A stretch of 64,000 nt of DNA from Syntrophomonadaceae bacterium (lineage in GTDB: Bacteria > Bacillota > Dethiobacteria > DTU022): the NCBI GenBank assembly GCA_003567725.1, contig PWYU01000086.1, positions 1-64,000 on the forward strand, given 5' to 3'. Under the pieces are notes generated by a model. It had not been told where the DNA came from and made no database searches. It worked only from the letters and a program-made list of their open reading frames with translations. Position numbers and translations under genes: made by a program. Within the stretch, counting starts at the first letter, position 1; each line of letters begins with the position of its first letter. This document shows positions 4,009-14,718 of this stretch, in pieces.

Positions 4009-5001
4009 TTGAACAGGGGTATGGTGTTAATGCGCAAAACAATTACTTCTAGGCGAAAGGCCATGGTATTATGCGCAGGTGTGCTGGTTTGCCTATTATG
4101 CGGTGGCTGCCCGGCTGAAGAACCGGTAGAACCTGAGCGGAAGGTTCGTCTTGCTGCCAATGAGCATTTTATTATCGAAGAAGAAGGATTAAACCTGCTT
4201 GAAGAAGAATACGGCCTGATTTTCGATGAAATTCATGAAATGGCTGTTGGGCTAACCCATGAAGCTCTCAAAATGGGGGATGTTGATGTAGCAGTAGGTT
4301 TTACCACCGATGGGAAAATTAAAGAATTAGAACTGGTCAAGCTTAAAGATGATCAGAAAGTTTTTCCCGTCAGCAACCCTGCTCCCCTGGTTCGAGAAAA
4401 TGTTTTGGAACAGTATCCCCAGATTGAGGCAATCATGGCTGAAATATCTTCCAGGCTGGATAACCAAACCATGATCGAACTAAATTACCAGGTCGATTTA
4501 GAAGAAAATGAACCGGTGGATGTAGCAAGAAAATGGCTTCTTGAAGAAGAATTAATTACAAAAAAAGATAGAATTCCACTGGATGGCGATGTGGTTGTTG
4601 TCGGTTCGAAAGAGTTTGTGGAACAAAATATTTTGGGCCAGATTGCCACCCTTGCTTTAGAAGATGCCGGAATTCCAGTTGAGAAAAAAGAGCCTATTGC
4701 CGGAACAGAAGCAATCAGAAGGGCAATCCTGCTGGAAGGTATTGATTTATACTGGGAGTATACAGGTGTTGCCTGGCAGGAAGTTTATGAAAAAGAAGAA
4801 AGGCTTTGCGATCCGGAACAGGTTTTCAAGAAAGTATCTGAAAAAGATGCAAAAATTGGCTTAACCTGGTTGGATTATGCGCCTTTGAATAAAACCTATA
4901 CTCTTATGATGCGCCGTGAAGATGCAATTTCTTATGAAATAGATTCTATCAGCGATTTGTCAAAATGGACTGAGCAGGTTCGCGCGGGAGAGTCGCAGTA
5001 A
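4009..5001 (+). CDS. Lipoprotein with OpuAC-type glycine betaine/choline-binding domain in permuted order
   Basis: Lipobox LLCGGC. N-terminal half matches the canonical C-terminal lobe (GDVDVAVGFTTDGKIKELELVKLKDDQKVFPVSNPAPLVRENVLEQYP..ELNYQVD). C-terminal half matches the canonical N-terminus (VVVGSKEFVEQNILGQIATLALEDAG...YWEYTG). Confidence 0.8.
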   Translation: MNRGMVLMRKTITSRRKAMVLCAGVLVCLLCGGCPAEEPVEPERKVRLAANEHFIIEEEGLNLLEEEYGLIFDEIHEMAVGLTHEALKMGDVDVAVGFTTDGKIKELELVKLKDDQKVFPVSNPAPLVRENVLEQYPQIEAIMAEISSRLDNQTMIELNYQVDLEENEPVDVARKWLLEEELITKKDRIPLDGDVVVVGSKEFVEQNILGQIATLALEDAGIPVEKKEPIAGTEAIRRAILLEGIDLYWEYTGVAWQEVYEKEERLCDPEQVFKKVSEKDAKIGLTWLDYAPLNKTYTLMMRREDAISYEIDSISDLSKWTEQVRAGESQ

Positions 5002-5993
5002 TGGAATTACCTCCTTTATCAGGCAATATATTTTCTACAAATCATAAAATAGAACGAGTATCCCGCTGGTTTTGCTTGTTCTTTATCGTTTTTCTATCTA
5101 TTATTCTTTACCAGTTCTGGTATCCACTTCGTGACACCGAGTTCACCTATTCAATTGTTTCTACTACTGTTTATAATCCTGTGCTGCTGTATTTATTTAG
5201 AGTAATCACTACTCTTGGCAGTGAAGGATTCTTCCTGGTATTCCTGTCTGCAATATACTGGTCGTACAACAAATCCTTAGGTTTTTGGGGTTTAATCTTG
5301 ATGCCCCTGGCAATTTTTGTGACCAGTGAAATACCTAAAGATATCATTAGATTGCCCCGCCCTGATGTGCGTGGTATTACCGTCCCAACTTATACCTTTC
5401 CCAGCGGCCATACTTCAGGAGCGGTGAGTGTTTGGGGTTATATGGCAATTATGCTCAAAAAACGCTGGCTATGGATTTGGGCGGTGGTGATTGTTTTACT
5501 AATTGGCCTTTCCAGGGTTACTTTAGGTTACCATTACCCGGGAGATGTTATCGGTGGTATTGTTACTGGAATGGTTTTTTTGGCCATTTTTCTGATAACA
5601 GGAATAGGCATGATCGAAAGCAGGATTCATGAAAAATTTTCTTTTTCAATGCTTATATTATTAGCTCTGGTTATTCCAATTGGCCTGTCTTTGCTTCCTG
5701 CCACCTATGCTCCTAATTTGATGGGTTATTTAGCCGGAGCAGGGGTTGGGAGGCTTCTGGAAAAAGAAAAATTAAATTTCGACCAGGGCGGTCACTGGTA
5801 CCAGCACCTGGCCAGATCTTTGATTGGCATGTTTGTCATAGCTCTGATCATCCTGGAACTGGGAGCTATTCTTCCGACCAACATACCGGTGTTCACCTTT
5901 ACAATTCATGCTTTATCCACTTTTTGGGCTACCTATCTTGCGCCGCTCATTTTTGTAAAAACCGGTTTGGCCCAAGTAAATAATTATAATTAG
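5001..5993 (+). CDS. PAP2 superfamily phosphatase (membrane)
   Basis: KDIIRLPRPD, YTFPSGHTSGAVSVWG, SRVTLGYHYPGDVIGG: the three-part PAP2 motif. Confidence 0.92.
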   Translation: MELPPLSGNIFSTNHKIERVSRWFCLFFIVFLSIILYQFWYPLRDTEFTYSIVSTTVYNPVLLYLFRVITTLGSEGFFLVFLSAIYWSYNKSLGFWGLILMPLAIFVTSEIPKDIIRLPRPDVRGITVPTYTFPSGHTSGAVSVWGYMAIMLKKRWLWIWAVVIVLLIGLSRVTLGYHYPGDVIGGIVTGMVFLAIFLITGIGMIESRIHEKFSFSMLILLALVIPIGLSLLPATYAPNLMGYLAGAGVGRLLEKEKLNFDQGGHWYQHLARSLIGMFVIALIILELGAILPTNIPVFTFTIHALSTFWATYLAPLIFVKTGLAQVNNYN

Positions 5994-7013: not shown

Positions 7014-7168
7014 GCCACATGGTGCTTCCGCCGTGGGCGTTAACCTGATGGTTAAAGTCCGTTGTGTCCTGGCAGGGTTAACCATCAGCTGAGGGCAAGG
7101 AGGTCTCCCTCGGGACGGAATCTAAATGAAGTCCAAGGCAAATTCCCGGTTCGATGAACAAGAACCGT
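7014..7168 (+). mobile_element. Probable 5' fragment of a group II intron (domain I), truncated and ORF-less
   Basis: CTGATGGTTA..TAACCATCAG pairing plus ...GTTAAAGTCCGTTGTG...GAGGGCAAGGAGG...GGGACGGAATCTAAATGAAGTCCAAGGCAAATTCCCGGTTCGATGAACAAGAACCG. This resembles domain I of bacterial (class C-like) group II introns from memory; it lies right after a terminator stem. Confidence 0.55.
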
Positions 7169-7231
7169 TTGCTTTAGCTTTTAATGCTTGAAAATTAGCT
7201 CGAAGATAAAGATATTTTACCGAAAATAGTC

Positions 7232-7260
7232 TTGTCTTTAGCACAGTGATCGTATATAAT
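7232..7260 (+). promoter_or_regulatory. Sigma-A-type promoter for the trkA-trkH leader
   Basis: TTGTCT (7232-7237), 17-nt spacer, TATAAT (7255-7260). Confidence 0.7.
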
Positions 7261-7267
7261 AAAATCA

Positions 7268-7412
7268 GATCGTAGGATCGGCAAAAAAATAATCCTTGCT
7301 GTTATAAAAAGGTCAGTTTGATAAAAATATCAAGGATGGGTGCCGATCATAATTAAGTTTAGTATACTTTTTCTCCCTGATGAGGCAGCGTAGCCGCTGT
7401 CTCTTTTTTTTT
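7268..7412 (+). ncRNA. Candidate cis-regulatory leader RNA / riboswitch upstream of trkA
   Basis: P1 GATCGGCA(7276-7283)/TGCCGATC(7341-7348); nested P2 ATCCTTG(7292-7298)/CAAGGAT(7331-7337); followed by an intrinsic terminator at 7382-7412, all before the trkA start. Confidence 0.55.
7382..7412 (+). terminator. Intrinsic terminator inside the trkA 5' leader
   Basis: GAGGCAGCG-TAGC-CGCTGTCTC stem (one G.U) followed by nine T. Confidence 0.8.
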
Positions 7413-7447
7413 CAATACTCTTTTGAGGTGAAAGGAAGGGGTTTTTT

Positions 7448-8854
7448 ATGCACATTATTATTGTCGGGGGCGGGGGAGTAAGCTATGAACTGGCCCGGAA
7501 CCTGTCTGAAAAAAACCAGGATGTTGTAGTCATAGAAAAAAATGCAGAGAAAGCTTTACGTTTTAAAGAAGCCCTGGACGTAATGGTTATTGAAGATAAC
7601 GGCGCCAATGCTGCTATTCTGGAACAGGCAGGAGTTAAGAAAGCCGACATGGTGGTTGCGGTGACCCAGTTTGATGAAGTAAATGTAATTGCCTGCATGA
7701 TCGCCAAACAGTACGATGTCCCGATCACGGTATGCCGAATCCGGAACCAGCAGTATGTCGGTGCTTCATCGGTTCTGACCCCGCAGCAGCTGGGGATAGA
7801 TGTGGTCATTAATCCGGAAAAGGTTGCGGCTATGGAGATTTCCAAGATGCTCCACTTCCCCGAGGCCAGCGAGATAGAATATTTCAACCGGGGCAGGATT
7901 ATGATGGTGGGCATTACCGTGGAAGCAGAAGCAGGAATTGTCGGAGTCCCGCTGCGTAAACTTCCCCAAAATCTTGACATGGTTATTGTCGGAATCAGCG
8001 ATATCGAGGGCAAATTTATCGTGCCTGGCGGCGATGATGTGGTTATGCCTGGTAATAAGGTTTACCTCCTGGGCAAAAGCAAATCTTTGAAGGATATAGG
8101 ATCTCTTTTACACCATGAACAGAAAACAATCAGGCAGGTAACTATCATGGGCGGTGGTTTGATTGGAGTCCAATTGGCTCACCTGCTTGAAAAAAGTAAA
8201 CAGCGCTTTGATGTAAAAATTATTGAAAAAGATATGGAGCGCTGTGAAGAGCTGTGCCGGGATCTGGATAAGACTCTTGTTTTGGAGGGAGATGCCACCG
8301 AAATAGCCATGCTGGAAGAAGAAGATACAGAACGAGCTGATGCGGTGGTTGCCGTAACCGGCGACGACCGCAGCAATATCGTGGTGGCCCTTCTGGCCCG
8401 CCAGTTTGGGGTATCAAAAATTATCTGCGAAGTGATGCGACCTCACTATGTGCCTGTTTATAACACCCTGGGCATAGATAGTGTAATCAATCCCCGGATC
8501 CTGGCTGCATCCCGGATCCTTCGCTTAACCCGCAAAGAGGATGCTGTAGCATTTTCTCTTCTGCAGGATGAAAAAGCTGAAGTGGTTGAAATCGTATTAC
8601 CTGAAAATGCCAGCGTGGTTAATAAAAAAATTGTTAAGGCTCGATTCCCCCGGGGAATGGTTATTGGATCCATCGCCCGCGGCGATGAAGTAATCGTCCC
8701 CACTGGTGATACAATGCTTCTGCCCGGAGATCATCTGGTTATTTTTGCTATTCCCAAAGTAAGCGGTACCCTGGATCGCTTTTTTGCCCCTCCTGAGGAT
8801 AAGGAAAACAAAAGATATCTTAGAAATAAATTGGTGCACAGCGAAGACAGTTGA
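7448..8854 (+). CDS. trkA: Trk system potassium transporter, peripheral subunit TrkA (duplicated TrkA-N/TrkA-C)
   Basis: MHIIIVGGGGVSYELARNLSEKNQDVVVIEK; two Rossmann/TrkA-C modules. Confidence 0.95.
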   Translation: MHIIIVGGGGVSYELARNLSEKNQDVVVIEKNAEKALRFKEALDVMVIEDNGANAAILEQAGVKKADMVVAVTQFDEVNVIACMIAKQYDVPITVCRIRNQQYVGASSVLTPQQLGIDVVINPEKVAAMEISKMLHFPEASEIEYFNRGRIMMVGITVEAEAGIVGVPLRKLPQNLDMVIVGISDIEGKFIVPGGDDVVMPGNKVYLLGKSKSLKDIGSLLHHEQKTIRQVTIMGGGLIGVQLAHLLEKSKQRFDVKIIEKDMERCEELCRDLDKTLVLEGDATEIAMLEEEDTERADAVVAVTGDDRSNIVVALLARQFGVSKIICEVMRPHYVPVYNTLGIDSVINPRILAASRILRLTRKEDAVAFSLLQDEKAEVVEIVLPENASVVNKKIVKARFPRGMVIGSIARGDEVIVPTGDTMLLPGDHLVIFAIPKVSGTLDRFFAPPEDKENKRYLRNKLVHSEDS

Positions 8855-8915: not shown

Positions 8916-10409
8916 TTGAAGGGGATATTATTTTTGCGTAATTTTCGCATTCCATATTTGCTGGGAATCATGCTCCTGTTCCTGGCCCTGGCCATGCTTC
9001 TACCCGCCCTGTGGGCGGTAGCCGAACAGGGGCCGGACCGGCTGGCATTCCTAAAATCGATCCTGCTTACTGCTGTTGCAGGCGGTGCCTTATATTTTTA
9101 TTTTCTCCCTTCGCGCGGCAGTGAACTAAGCATAGTTGAAAATTTTACCGTGGTTACCCTGGCCTGGTTTGTAGCCGGTGTTTTTGGTGCTTTGCCTTTT
9201 CACTTCTATGGAGTTTTTGAAGGAAGTTTTCTCCAGGCTTTTTTTGAAGCGGTTTCCGGGTTTACAACAACCGGGGCCACCTTGATTGAAGATATTGAAG
9301 TACTGCCCCGCGGCCTGCTGCTGTGGCGGAGCTTAACCCAGTGGTTGGGTGGTATGGGAATTATTGTCCTTTTTTTGGCCGTCCTGCCCAAGTTTGGTTT
9401 TCGAAGCATGACCATGTTTAAAGCGGAAATACCCGGCCCGGTGGCTGAAAAGGTTTTGCCCAGGGTGGTCGAAACCGCCCGGCGGCTCTGGTTGATTTAC
9501 GTGGTTTTTACGGCGGTTTTAACTTTACTCTTAATGCTGAGCGGAATCAGTTTTTATGACTCTCTGGCCCATGCTTTTACCACCATGCCTACCGGTGGTT
9601 TTTCGCCATACAATGCCAGCATCGCCGCCTTCAACAACCCAGCCGCAGAAGTAATCATTATCTTTTTTATGCTTTTTGCCGGGATCAACTTTGCAATATA
9701 TTTTCGAATTATGCGTGGCGAATTCAATGTTTTAAAAAATCCGGAGTTAAGGTTTTACCTGGTGGTGATCCTGGTTGGGATCTGTCTGGTAACCGTTAAT
9801 AACTTAGAGCAAGCCGGGCAATCTCTTACTCTTGCCCTGCGGCAAAGTGCTTTTCAGGTAGTATCTATCACTACCACAACCGGTTATGCTACAGCAGACT
9901 TTAACGGCTGGCCTAATTTTTCCCGCCTTTTTTTACTGTTGGTCATGTTTATCGGCGGCTGCGGCGGCTCAACGGGGGGAGCTATGAAACAGGTGCGCTG
10001 GATGCTGATGTTTAAGTATGCCTTCCGTGAACTGTCCCGGGTTATCCATCCTTCCGCCATTTCTTCAGTCAAATTAGGCAGGCAATTTGTCAATGAAGAG
10101 GTGTTGCGGTCGGTGATGGGTTTTGGGTTCTTATATCTTTTACTTACAGTTGGTTCGACTCTGTTCCTGGCCCTGATGGGGCTGGATACTGAAACGGCCT
10201 TTTCAGCGGTAGCGGCTACGATCGGCAATGTCGGGCCCGGTCTTGGAGCTGTGGGACCGGTGGAAACATACCAGGTTATACCGCCTGCCGGCCAGTTTAT
10301 CCTTTCAATCCTGATGGTTATCGGGCGCCTGGAAATATTTACGGTCCTGGTCATTTTTCTACCCGAGTCAAGGCGGCTTTGGACCAGTGCTTTAAAAGGA
10401 AAGAGGTAG
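8916..10409 (+). CDS. trkH: Trk-type K+ transporter membrane subunit TrkH
   Basis: Selectivity-filter-like GFTTTGAT, TMPTGGFS, STTTGYATADF and GNVGPGLG; adjacent to trkA. Non-ATG start likely. Confidence 0.93.
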   Translation: MKGILFLRNFRIPYLLGIMLLFLALAMLLPALWAVAEQGPDRLAFLKSILLTAVAGGALYFYFLPSRGSELSIVENFTVVTLAWFVAGVFGALPFHFYGVFEGSFLQAFFEAVSGFTTTGATLIEDIEVLPRGLLLWRSLTQWLGGMGIIVLFLAVLPKFGFRSMTMFKAEIPGPVAEKVLPRVVETARRLWLIYVVFTAVLTLLLMLSGISFYDSLAHAFTTMPTGGFSPYNASIAAFNNPAAEVIIIFFMLFAGINFAIYFRIMRGEFNVLKNPELRFYLVVILVGICLVTVNNLEQAGQSLTLALRQSAFQVVSITTTTGYATADFNGWPNFSRLFLLLVMFIGGCGGSTGGAMKQVRWMLMFKYAFRELSRVIHPSAISSVKLGRQFVNEEVLRSVMGFGFLYLLLTVGSTLFLALMGLDTETAFSAVAATIGNVGPGLGAVGPVETYQVIPPAGQFILSILMVIGRLEIFTVLVIFLPESRRLWTSALKGKR

Positions 10410-10411
10410 AA

Positions 10412-11497
10412 ATGATATCTTACCAGACTTTACTGAAACAGTTTAAAGAAGAAGATTTTACTTCTGTTTATCTTTTTTACGGAGAAGAAAAATACCTTCA
10501 GCAGGAATTTCTCTTTCGTCTGGCTAAAAACTACCTGGGTTCTGAGGCTGAATTTGGTTTAGAAAAAATAGACGGCCCGGAGCATGATCTGGAAAGTATA
10601 ATAGCCGGCTTAAATGAAAGAGGGCTATTTACCCGGAGGAGAATTGTGGTCATTGAAAATCCTCCTTATCTGGCACCTCCTCGGAAAAAAGAAGACCGGG
10701 AAGAGCACGCAGAAGCATCCGCACCAGATAACCAGGAAGAAAGGAATACCGAGCTGCTAAGAGAATATATGGAGAGCCAGGATTCCGGAGAGCGGGACAG
10801 TATTATTGTTTATTTAAGTCCGGGCGCCGACCGGCGCAGGCGCTTGTATAAATTAATTGATAAAAAGGGTGTGGTTGTGGAGTGCGCTTCCCTTAAAGGT
10901 GAGTCACTTGCTGCCTGGATTCGCAAGAAAGCTGAACAACTGGGCAAAAAGATTGATCGGGCAGCAGTTGAAAAATTGCTCCTTGCAGGGGATCATAATT
11001 TACATTATCTTTCCAAAGAACTGGAGAAATATTGCGCCTATCTGGGCAATGATCATGATACAATAACAATGGATACGGTGGAAACCTTGTTCTCCGGAGA
11101 TTTGCAAGGAAATGTTTTTAAACTGGCCGATGCCCTGGCCGAAGGAAATTTGAATGAAGCCCAGGATTTTTTAAATTTGCTTCTTCAGAGGCGAGAACAA
11201 CCATTACTTATATTTTTTATGCTAACCCGTCATTACAGGATGCTTTTGCAGGCTTACAGCCTGCTGGAAGAAGGACGAAGCGGTGGTGATCTTGCATCCA
11301 TCCTGGGAGTTCAGCCTTTTGTTGCTCGGAAGTTACGGGAACAAACAGCTCTTTATAGCCGGTATACCCTTGAGGAAGCAATGCTGGCTTTGCAGAAAAC
11401 AGATCACCAGATTAAAACCGGTTGCCTTGAACCGGCTCAGGCTTTAAAATTAATATTATACCGGATTGATAATGTTCAAGCAAAGACCAGGGCATAA
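10412..11497 (+). CDS. holA: DNA polymerase III subunit delta
   Basis: MISYQTLLKQFKEEDFTSVYLFYGEEKYLQQEF...; HolA architecture. Start moved to the MISYQ codon. Confidence 0.88.
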   Translation: MISYQTLLKQFKEEDFTSVYLFYGEEKYLQQEFLFRLAKNYLGSEAEFGLEKIDGPEHDLESIIAGLNERGLFTRRRIVVIENPPYLAPPRKKEDREEHAEASAPDNQEERNTELLREYMESQDSGERDSIIVYLSPGADRRRRLYKLIDKKGVVVECASLKGESLAAWIRKKAEQLGKKIDRAAVEKLLLAGDHNLHYLSKELEKYCAYLGNDHDTITMDTVETLFSGDLQGNVFKLADALAEGNLNEAQDFLNLLLQRREQPLLIFFMLTRHYRMLLQAYSLLEEGRSGGDLASILGVQPFVARKLREQTALYSRYTLEEAMLALQKTDHQIKTGCLEPAQALKLILYRIDNVQAKTRA

Positions 11498-12672: not shown

Positions 12673-13329
12673 TTAGATCCAATCTAATTTCTTTAGGTGT
12701 TTGTTTTGGCCAATGGCTACTATTATATCTTCTTTTTCAATAAGGTCTTCTGCCACTGGCGAGATTTTAGTTTTATCTCCGTTTTTACGCCTGAGGGCTA
12801 TGACGCTAACTCCATGGCGGGCTCGTAAATCAAGTTCTTTAAGCGATTTATTTATCATATGATCGGGTGCTACGATCTCTACCACGCTGTAATTGTCCGA
12901 AAGCTCAATCATATCGATAATCGAGGGGGCTACCAGGCTACGGGCCAGTTTATGTCCCATTTCTCGTTCTGGAAAAACTACCCGGTTAACTCCTATTTTC
13001 TCAAGCACCTTAGCGTGAAGAGTGTCCTTTGCTTTGGCTACAATGTATTTCGCTTCCAGCTCAATGAGCAAAATTGCAGCCATAATGCTGGCCTGCACAT
13101 CATCTCCAATTGCTATAACCACGGCATTGAAATCCTTGATATCAAAAGCTTTCAGGCAAGCTTCGGAGGAAGCATCCGCTTGTGCCGCATTGGTTACTTC
13201 ATCGCTGATCAGCTGAATTTTTTCTTCATCATCATCGATAACCATTACATCGCGACCCAGATCATAGAGAGTCTTGGCCACGCTTGTCCCAAACCGGCCG
13301 GCTCCAATTACTAAGTACTGCTTGTTCAT
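12673..13329 (-). CDS. Ktr/Trk potassium uptake regulatory subunit (RCK, KtrA-like)
   Basis: MNKQYLVIGAGRFGTSVAKTLYDLGRDVMVIDDDEEKIQ; GGGAGG RBS upstream of 13329. Confidence 0.92.
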   Translation of the reverse strand: MNKQYLVIGAGRFGTSVAKTLYDLGRDVMVIDDDEEKIQLISDEVTNAAQADASSEACLKAFDIKDFNAVVIAIGDDVQASIMAAILLIELEAKYIVAKAKDTLHAKVLEKIGVNRVVFPEREMGHKLARSLVAPSIIDMIELSDNYSVVEIVAPDHMINKSLKELDLRARHGVSVIALRRKNGDKTKISPVAEDLIEKEDIIVAIGQNKHLKKLDWI

Positions 13330-13380
13330 TAAACAACCTCCCAGTAAAGTAGTATCCGTAAATACCATATAGTTTAAAAA

Positions 13381-14718
13381 CTAACCGATCATCAGATGTT
13401 CCTCAGGATATTTTATGGCATCATCTTTTGGTTTTTTCTGAGCTAGGGCTACCAGCAGAGTTACCGGGCCTATCCTCCCGGAAAACATAGTTGCAATCAA
13501 GGTAATTTTACTGGGGTTACTCAGTTCCGGAGTAATCCCTGATGAAAGTCCAACTGTGCCAAAAGCTGAAAACGCTTCAAAAAGCAGGGCCATAAAATCA
13601 TGGTTTTCAAACAAAGTCATTAAAAATGTGGTCATAAATATAAAAGCTGCCGCTGCAATTATAATCGATACAGCCTTCATGATATGATATACAGGTAGGC
13701 GGCGTAAAAAAAGCACCGGTTCATGCCTGCCCTTGATCATACTGATCAGGGTAATTAGCACAACCCCGAAAGTGGTCGTTTTCACTCCTCCGCCGGTGGA
13801 AGTAGGTGAGGCTCCTATAAACATTAATACTATTATAATTAACAAAGATGAATATTTTAGCATTCCTGTTTCCAGGACACTGAAGCCGGCGGTGCGGGCG
13901 GTTGCCGAGGTAAACAGAGCTGTAAATATTTGCGCTCCACCTGGTAGATGACCCATTGTATCCGGGTTGTTATATTCAAGCAGCAGGATCAGGATGGTTC
14001 CGCTGGCCAAAAGGGAGGTGGAAATAATCAGCACCAGGCGGCTGTGCAGCGAAAGAGGGTTGCGGTGAATAAATAGACTGATCAATTCAAGTATAACCGT
14101 GAATCCCAGGCCACCGATAACAAAAAGGATCATGATCGTCCCGTTTACCAGGTAATCAGCAGGGAAAAGGGTCAGGCTGTCATAATTGCCAAATAGATCG
14201 AATCCGGCATTGCCAAAAGCTGATACAGCGTGAAAGAGCGAAAAGAAAATCCCCTGCTTATTTCCAAGGTCCGGGATAAATCGAAAACAGAGCAATACTG
14301 TTCCTATAAAGATGAAAAACAAGGCGATTCGAAATATTGACTTTACCAGTGGGACCAATCCGGCCATAGATTCTTGATGCAGGGTTTCTTTAACAATCAA
14401 GCGATCTCGTAAAGAGATTTGGCGCCCCAAAAAAATAAAAATAAGGGTCGTCATGGTCATGAAACCAAGCGAACCGATAAATATTAGGATCATGATTACA
14501 GCCTGCCCAAAAGGGGAGAAAAAAGTGCCGGTATCAACTACTACCAGGCCGGTTACACATACTGCTGAAGTGGCAGTAAAAAAAGCATCAATATAATTAA
14601 TACCAGCCCCTTCATGGGCCTGCGGCAATCTGAGCAGCATGGAACCGATCACTATTACGCTCAAAAACCCTGAAGCCATAACCCGTGCCGGATTTATCGG
14701 TTTTCGCCTTTTGGACAA
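13381..14718 (-). CDS. Ktr/Trk potassium uptake membrane subunit (KtrB-like)
   Basis: ATSAVCVTGLVVVDTG, SAFGNAGFDLFG, TARTAGFSVLE, SAFGTVGLSSGITPE filter repeats. Confidence 0.93.
   Translation of the reverse strand: MSKRRKPINPARVMASGFLSVIVIGSMLLRLPQAHEGAGINYIDAFFTATSAVCVTGLVVVDTGTFFSPFGQAVIMILIFIGSLGFMTMTTLIFIFLGRQISLRDRLIVKETLHQESMAGLVPLVKSIFRIALFFIFIGTVLLCFRFIPDLGNKQGIFFSLFHAVSAFGNAGFDLFGNYDSLTLFPADYLVNGTIMILFVIGGLGFTVILELISLFIHRNPLSLHSRLVLIISTSLLASGTILILLLEYNNPDTMGHLPGGAQIFTALFTSATARTAGFSVLETGMLKYSSLLIIIVLMFIGASPTSTGGGVKTTTFGVVLITLISMIKGRHEPVLFLRRLPVYHIMKAVSIIIAAAAFIFMTTFLMTLFENHDFMALLFEAFSAFGTVGLSSGITPELSNPSKITLIATMFSGRIGPVTLLVALAQKKPKDDAIKYPEEHLMIG

Follow-up and report, generated by a model that had tools for sequence, protein, structure and literature searches.

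The element is located on the forward strand of the window (the whole stretch of 64,000 nucleotides that was analysed), where a promoter, a nested stem and an intrinsic terminator precede the potassium uptake genes trkA and trkH and, behind these, holA (Table 1). The promoter, the 8-bp stem P1, the 7-bp stem P2, the terminator with its T9 and then trkA are all present where a preliminary description of this DNA had placed them; the RNA start is an estimate, set 7 nt 3' of the -10 box. TrkA is identified with confidence (NF007039; score 466.8 bits, cut-off 293), and given the gap of 35 bp between the T-run and its start codon, the gene is probably expressed through read-through of the terminator. 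The leader folds more stably than its dinucleotide-shuffled versions (z = -3.25; 1 of 200 shuffles as low) and its layout recurs in relatives, which bears out the earlier view of a real, structured leader with the architecture of an attenuator and shows it to be conserved.

Table 1. Features of the leader and of the genes that follow it, in window coordinates
Feature	Position	Strand	Remarks
Promoter, sigma-A-type, TTGTCT-17-TATAAT	7232..7260	+	read directly in the sequence
-35 box TTGTCT	7232-7237	+	followed by the 17-bp spacer
-10 box TATAAT	7255-7260	+	
Terminated RNA, predicted, ~145 nt	7268..7412	+	inferred from promoter and terminator
P1 5' arm GATCGGCA, closing stem	7276..7283	+	8-bp stem; first five pairs covary, 29 members
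Decayed interior, formerly c-di-GMP-I-GGC aptamer	7284..7340	+	RF03167 at the homologous position in G020, G021, G027, G034, G066
P2 5' strand ATCCTTG	7292-7298	+	7-bp stem inside the decayed interior; lineage-specific
P2 3' strand CAAGGAT	7331-7337	+	
P1 3' arm TGCCGATC	7341..7348	+	same strand serves the antiterminator in aptamer-bearing relatives
3' module UUUUUCUCCCUGAUGAGGCAGC-loop-GCUGUCUC-U(7-9)	7368-7412	+	
UUUUU + CUCCCUGAU, candidate C-rich seed	7368..7381	+	predicted single-stranded
CUCCCUGAU	7373-7381	+	exact in 30/30 members
17-nt core CTCCCTGATGAGGCAGC	7373..7389	+	invariant
Intrinsic terminator GAGGCAGC-GTAGCC-GCTGTCTC-T9	7382..7412	+	hairpin -13.9 kcal/mol
Terminator hairpin GAGGCAGCGTAGCCGCTGTCTC	7382-7403	+	
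T9	7404-7412	+	
trkA, 468 aa	7448..8854	+	ATG at 7448; downstream gene in the window
trkH	8916..10409	+	
holA	10379..11497	+	

On its upstream side the promoter adjoins a match to the group II intron domain model RF02001 (7106-7219; 25.2 bits, below the gathering score of 32), which has no reverse transcriptase there and is read as an intron remnant. Similarity of this remnant DNA starts at about 7022; like DNA is found at three places in one relative (G001, 71-78% identity), the best of which has no reverse transcriptase ORF nearby. A second K+ uptake pair at 12673-14718 on the minus strand encodes short TrkA-like and TrkH/KtrB-like proteins, and 4009-5001 encodes a glycine-betaine-binding-like protein, which fits a salt-adapted host.

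The comparison with Rfam proposed in the preliminary description was run, and the window sequence itself gives no clean match to a known family. With cmscan against all 4227 families the leader has no match at gathering score, the Na+-I, Na+-II, nhaA, ydaO and M-box models included; at E<=10 the region 7100-7600 has no riboswitch-like match, and the leader gives weak, unrelated matches only. The c-di-GMP-I-GGC model (RF03167, gathering score 59 bits) is likewise below its threshold in the window copy, with no match at E<=10 in 7100-7600, and the 3' module has no family in Rfam as searched here.

Relatives were found by seeking TrkA homologues in 80 genomes and reading the regions upstream of the orthologues. 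Most orthologues in the window's family (f1) share one layout, in which a promoter close to TTGTCATC-TATAAT is followed by a closing stem close to GACCG/CGGUC, then by an interior that varies, and last by UUUUUCUCCCUGAUGAGGCAGCGUAGCCGCUGUCUC and a T-run; the exact 27-mer CTGATGAGGCAGCGTAGCCGCTGTCTC is present in 19 loci retrieved through trkA homology, where the motif was not used as a key. A motif search allowing 3 mismatches returned one copy per genome, all in this family, with the exception of G034, which has two matches, one at the end of each of two short contigs. A search for the 17-mer core with one mismatch allowed, over 98 genomes of the class (43 of the family and 55 others), found the exact core once per genome in 30/43 family genomes and in 0/55 of the others, where one chance match with 1 mismatch was seen. 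In the 13 family genomes without the module the holA loci mostly stop at contig edges, so some of these genomes may have the module after all. A scan of 85,462 species yielded 27 contigs with the module, and those that could be matched to comparison genomes belong to the same family. One record, L107 (JAGUZX010000037.1), is titled Desulfovibrio sp. DeMMO6_25, and its gene neighbourhood is the same as that of contig C121 of G027 from the window's family; it is probably a mislabelled MAG. A DNA search with the whole leader gave chance matches only, because the interior is not conserved.

Conservation, invisible from one sequence, is seen in the promoter and the closing stem P1 and most of all in 7368-7412; roughly the last 36 letters hardly vary among the 30 members, irrespective of the gene behind them. 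In 30/30 members the 8-nt 3' stem GCTGTCTC and the 17-nt core are identical, against a mean recA third-position identity of 44% in the same genomes; the core was the search key and its invariance is thus partly by selection of the set, a point answered by the trkA-anchored loci and by the 3' stem, which lies outside the key and was free to vary. Twenty-four genomes share the terminator loop GTAGCC; the other six have different loop sequences, two of them also of a different length. A -35/-10 pair with 17-bp spacing lies 5' of the element and a U-tailed terminator is predicted in all 30, with predicted transcripts of 54-157 nt. The terminator stem (7382-7403 and homologues) keeps the same G-U wobble in 30/30, though G-C would pair more stably, a sign that both strands are constrained at the level of sequence.

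The interior behaves differently from this module. Among the 22 members with a decayed interior, mean identity is 38% in the interior, 39% in the upstream spacer and 35% in the downstream spacer. The expectation that the stems would covary is borne out for P1, whose pairing is kept through two-sided changes in three of five pairs (97.9% of cells paired, against 55.7% for the best slid control), but not for P2 or the interior; conservation of the P2 sequence was sought in the relatives and found absent. On this sequence evidence, selection acts on the 3' module of the decayed window element.

The origin of the interior is indicated by relatives in which RF03167 scores above its gathering threshold at the homologous position: G034 (72.1 bits), G020 (70.5), G027 and L107 (69.4), G021 (68.9) and G066 (63.7). 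G064, at 58.8 bits, falls just below the cut-off, and G032 was counted as aptamer-bearing by sequence judgement. The 30 members thus comprise 7 with the aptamer, 22 with a decayed interior, the window among them, and one (G018) that has nothing between promoter and module and a predicted RNA of 54 nt. Traces of RF03167 are kept in G017 and G019 (24.1 and 19.9 bits); the remaining members, window included, have none. RF03167 is over cut-off in 104 of 120 genomes of the phylum and, being this common, the aptamer is taken as the ancestral state. In a recA tree G018 and 24 others of the derived set form a supported clade (99/96), inside which the aptamer-bearing G064 and G066 adjoin the decayed group g9 (92/92); if aptamers only get lost, this implies at least three losses, on a tree of one gene with many weak forks. 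Riboswitch ancestry followed by aptamer loss is very probable. The riboswitch-like character proposed earlier therefore stands as to ancestry, given RF03167 at the homologous position, and is not supported as to a novel aptamer. Decay through lost c-di-GMP signalling was considered and is ruled out for the window genome (G000), which has 11 RF03167 matches and 26 GGDEF matches; GGDEF is missing in G011 only. The RF03167 matches in G000 include some on contigs C93 and C78, two of them about 70 nt apart (C93:663-754 and 828-914).

The aptamer-bearing members are predicted to switch. Pairing of the 3' aptamer strand with CCUGAUGAGGCAGC is found in 7/7 of them at -17.0 to -20.7 kcal/mol (predicted), and ranges from -20.7 to -0.7 kcal/mol, mostly weaker, in members without the aptamer (Mann-Whitney P = 0.0005). 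G013, G015 and G025 have no recognised aptamer yet a strong antiterminator partner; in the window copy the duplex is weak (-10.1 kcal/mol; 10% of shuffles as strong). The probability of the terminator stem, 0.00 to 0.24 in five of the seven aptamer-bearing members, rises to 0.98-1.00 in that group when P1 is enforced, and members without an intact aptamer are predicted to form the terminator by default (mean probability 0.96). CUCCCUGAU is more exposed in the latter, with a mean P(unpaired) of 0.66 vs 0.32 in aptamer-bearing members (P = 0.003).

In the c-di-GMP riboswitch class ligand binding usually stabilises P1, and c-di-GMP should cause termination here if it does the same. The ancestor would have had a strong promoter giving an RNA of ~138-157 nt; with P1 unformed, the aptamer 3' strand GCUGCCGGUCAGG would pair with CCUGAUGAGGCAGC, resulting in antitermination, and with P1 formed, as favoured by c-di-GMP binding, the GAGGCAGC..GCUGUCUC terminator would fold and the RNA would end. 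The lineage of the window appears to have lost the aptamer core and kept the closing stem as a 5' hairpin, with termination predicted by default; read-through transcripts would express trkA-trkH-holA.

The gene behind the RNA is not constant. In most members the RNA is flanked by FAH or rubrerythrin on one side and by trkA-trkH-holA on the other; in G013, G018 and G025 it lies directly 5' of holA, in G001 5' of an antiporter-trkA pair, and probably likewise in G002, judging by similarity of layout. In G020, G021, G027, G032 and G034 a convergent DUF1957/GH57-like gene follows and there is no close co-directional gene; these are five of the seven aptamer-bearing members. With a downstream gene that varies and a module that does not, the window element is therefore read from the sequences as a decayed c-di-GMP riboswitch with a selected 3' module, a descendant of c-di-GMP-I-GGC and not a new potassium sensor.

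The most likely reading of the released RNA, to which we assign a probability of roughly 0.6, is that of a trans-acting small regulatory RNA with a C-rich anti-Shine-Dalgarno seed. Selection would then act on UUUUUCUCCCUGAUGAGGCAGC-loop-GCUGUCUC-U9 since the released RNA acts in trans; the single-stranded C-rich UUUUUCUCCCUGAU beside the U-tailed terminator would pair with AGGGAGA-type ribosome-binding sites, probably with Hfq, which is encoded in 42 of the 43 family genomes. Antitermination alone is not the explanation, because CUCCCUGAU does not vary even in members that have lost the antiterminator partner; a terminator role does not account for this invariance, CUCCCUGAU being outside the stem; and a leader role does not account for the module, as the neighbouring gene changes. 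A trans-acting sRNA would account for all three alike. Two features expected of an sRNA are found: a predicted promoter of its own and a predicted intrinsic terminator, which together would yield a short transcript, and a conserved, accessible pairing region (CUCCCUGAU, at the exposure given above). In the window, read-through probably feeds trkA as a cis effect alongside the putative trans role. More tentatively, we suggest that the small RNA was the real output of the c-di-GMP riboswitch, in which the ligand would complete the terminator and free the C-rich seed; the sensor would later have been lost and the tail kept letter for letter in one family, giving a constitutive trans-acting sRNA.

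The alternative that survives best, though doubtful, is an attenuator acting in cis only, in which the module binds an antiterminator protein or a trans-acting RNA, or the terminator is tuned for read-through into trkA, holA or the antiporter. The architecture and ancestry are of attenuator type, the 35 bp before trkA are too short for a second promoter, and the retained G-U wobble could tune terminator strength; wherever trkA follows, as in most members, the terminator is bound to act on it in cis, and a cis-only role there is conceivable. Against it, five genomes have no close co-directional gene, the downstream gene varies elsewhere, and CUCCCUGAU stays invariant outside the terminator stem even without an antiterminator partner. 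The convergent gene in those five genomes would suit an antisense-acting riboswitch, which at low c-di-GMP would read through in the deep lineages into an antisense RNA to the GH57-like gene, the derived copies being relics without strong function; antisense orientation is most enriched among c-di-GMP riboswitches (PMC9943018). This is unlikely, as it leaves unexplained the invariance of the module in 25 genomes with other neighbourhoods, and G018 as well.

Less likely still is a replacement, within the genus of the window, of the c-di-GMP aptamer by a new class that binds K+, Na+ or c-di-AMP, the ligands suggested in the preliminary description. The P1 stem persists in G000, G001, G002, G004 and G011, where it has grown to 7-10 bp, and K+ transport genes lie downstream in most genomes. 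However, the interior between the P1 arms is no better conserved than the flanking spacers, P2 is unshared, G018 has no interior, the Rfam families of known riboswitches for ions or c-di-AMP give no match, and where relatives have a recognised aptamer at the homologous position, it is always c-di-GMP-I-GGC; a K+-linked sensor is further disfavoured by the same RNA without a K+ gene behind it in some genomes. A leader peptide encoded by the module (ATGAGGCAGCGT..., MRQRSRCLFF) was rejected, as the ATG within the core and a frame that stops shortly past the T-run in many members are offset by the lack of a Shine-Dalgarno sequence (the upstream bases are CUCCCUG), by a 5-nt loop in G021 and G032 that shifts the frame, by changed residues in G027 and G034, and by hairpin pairing that accounts for the conservation.

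The direct ancestor of the element would be the c-di-GMP-I-GGC riboswitch of the GEMM clan, as the aptamers of relatives score over or at the gathering threshold and show the expected antiterminator/terminator arrangement; the window copy differs in having no aptamer core and no match to the model, and its selected 3' module lies outside that model. Listeria provides examples of transcripts that end at a riboswitch and act in trans, namely the SAM riboswitches SreA and SreB, and Rli55 (PMC8079631); these keep working aptamers, whereas here the aptamer is decayed or deleted and the tail unchanged. The Brt RNAs of Bartonella are ~200 nt long and genus-restricted, are most conserved at the 3' end, lie 5' of a poorly transcribed gene and have been proposed to have a dual cis/trans role (PMC5387305); likened to the present element by description, they differ in being multi-copy, in having no known riboswitch ancestry and in the constant type of their downstream gene. 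In the Firmicutes sRNAs IsrR, FsrA and RsaE/RoxS a single-stranded C-rich motif can bind Shine-Dalgarno sequences (PMC9410917), and the likeness to these is one of motif.

Few riboswitches acting in trans are known, and the origin of sRNA genes is an open question; if the trans-acting reading is true, the family holds a step-by-step record of a riboswitch becoming a constitutive trans-acting sRNA. Because the 30 related genomes combine an unchanged 3' module with aptamers that are intact, decayed or deleted, such a conversion from sensor to sRNA is directly testable. The case is also a caution against assuming that the ligand of a structured leader is the substrate of the transporter operon behind it.

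Targets of the putative seed were sought with the anti-seed TCAGGGAGAA near start codons; this crude and partial search gave no recurring orthologue among the 20 sites fetched. The anti-seed resembles a ribosome-binding site, so its specificity may be limited; the reversed-pattern control is biased for the same reason, and the counts support no inference. Several repeated anti-seed sites lie inside coding sequence, for example in a stretch of recA. In a single case (L320; contig C264 of G031, near 5429) an 11-nt sequence that matches the anti-seed exactly, ATCAGGGAGAA, is located 4 nt 5' of the point where a protein with an HD-GYP-like N-terminus begins.
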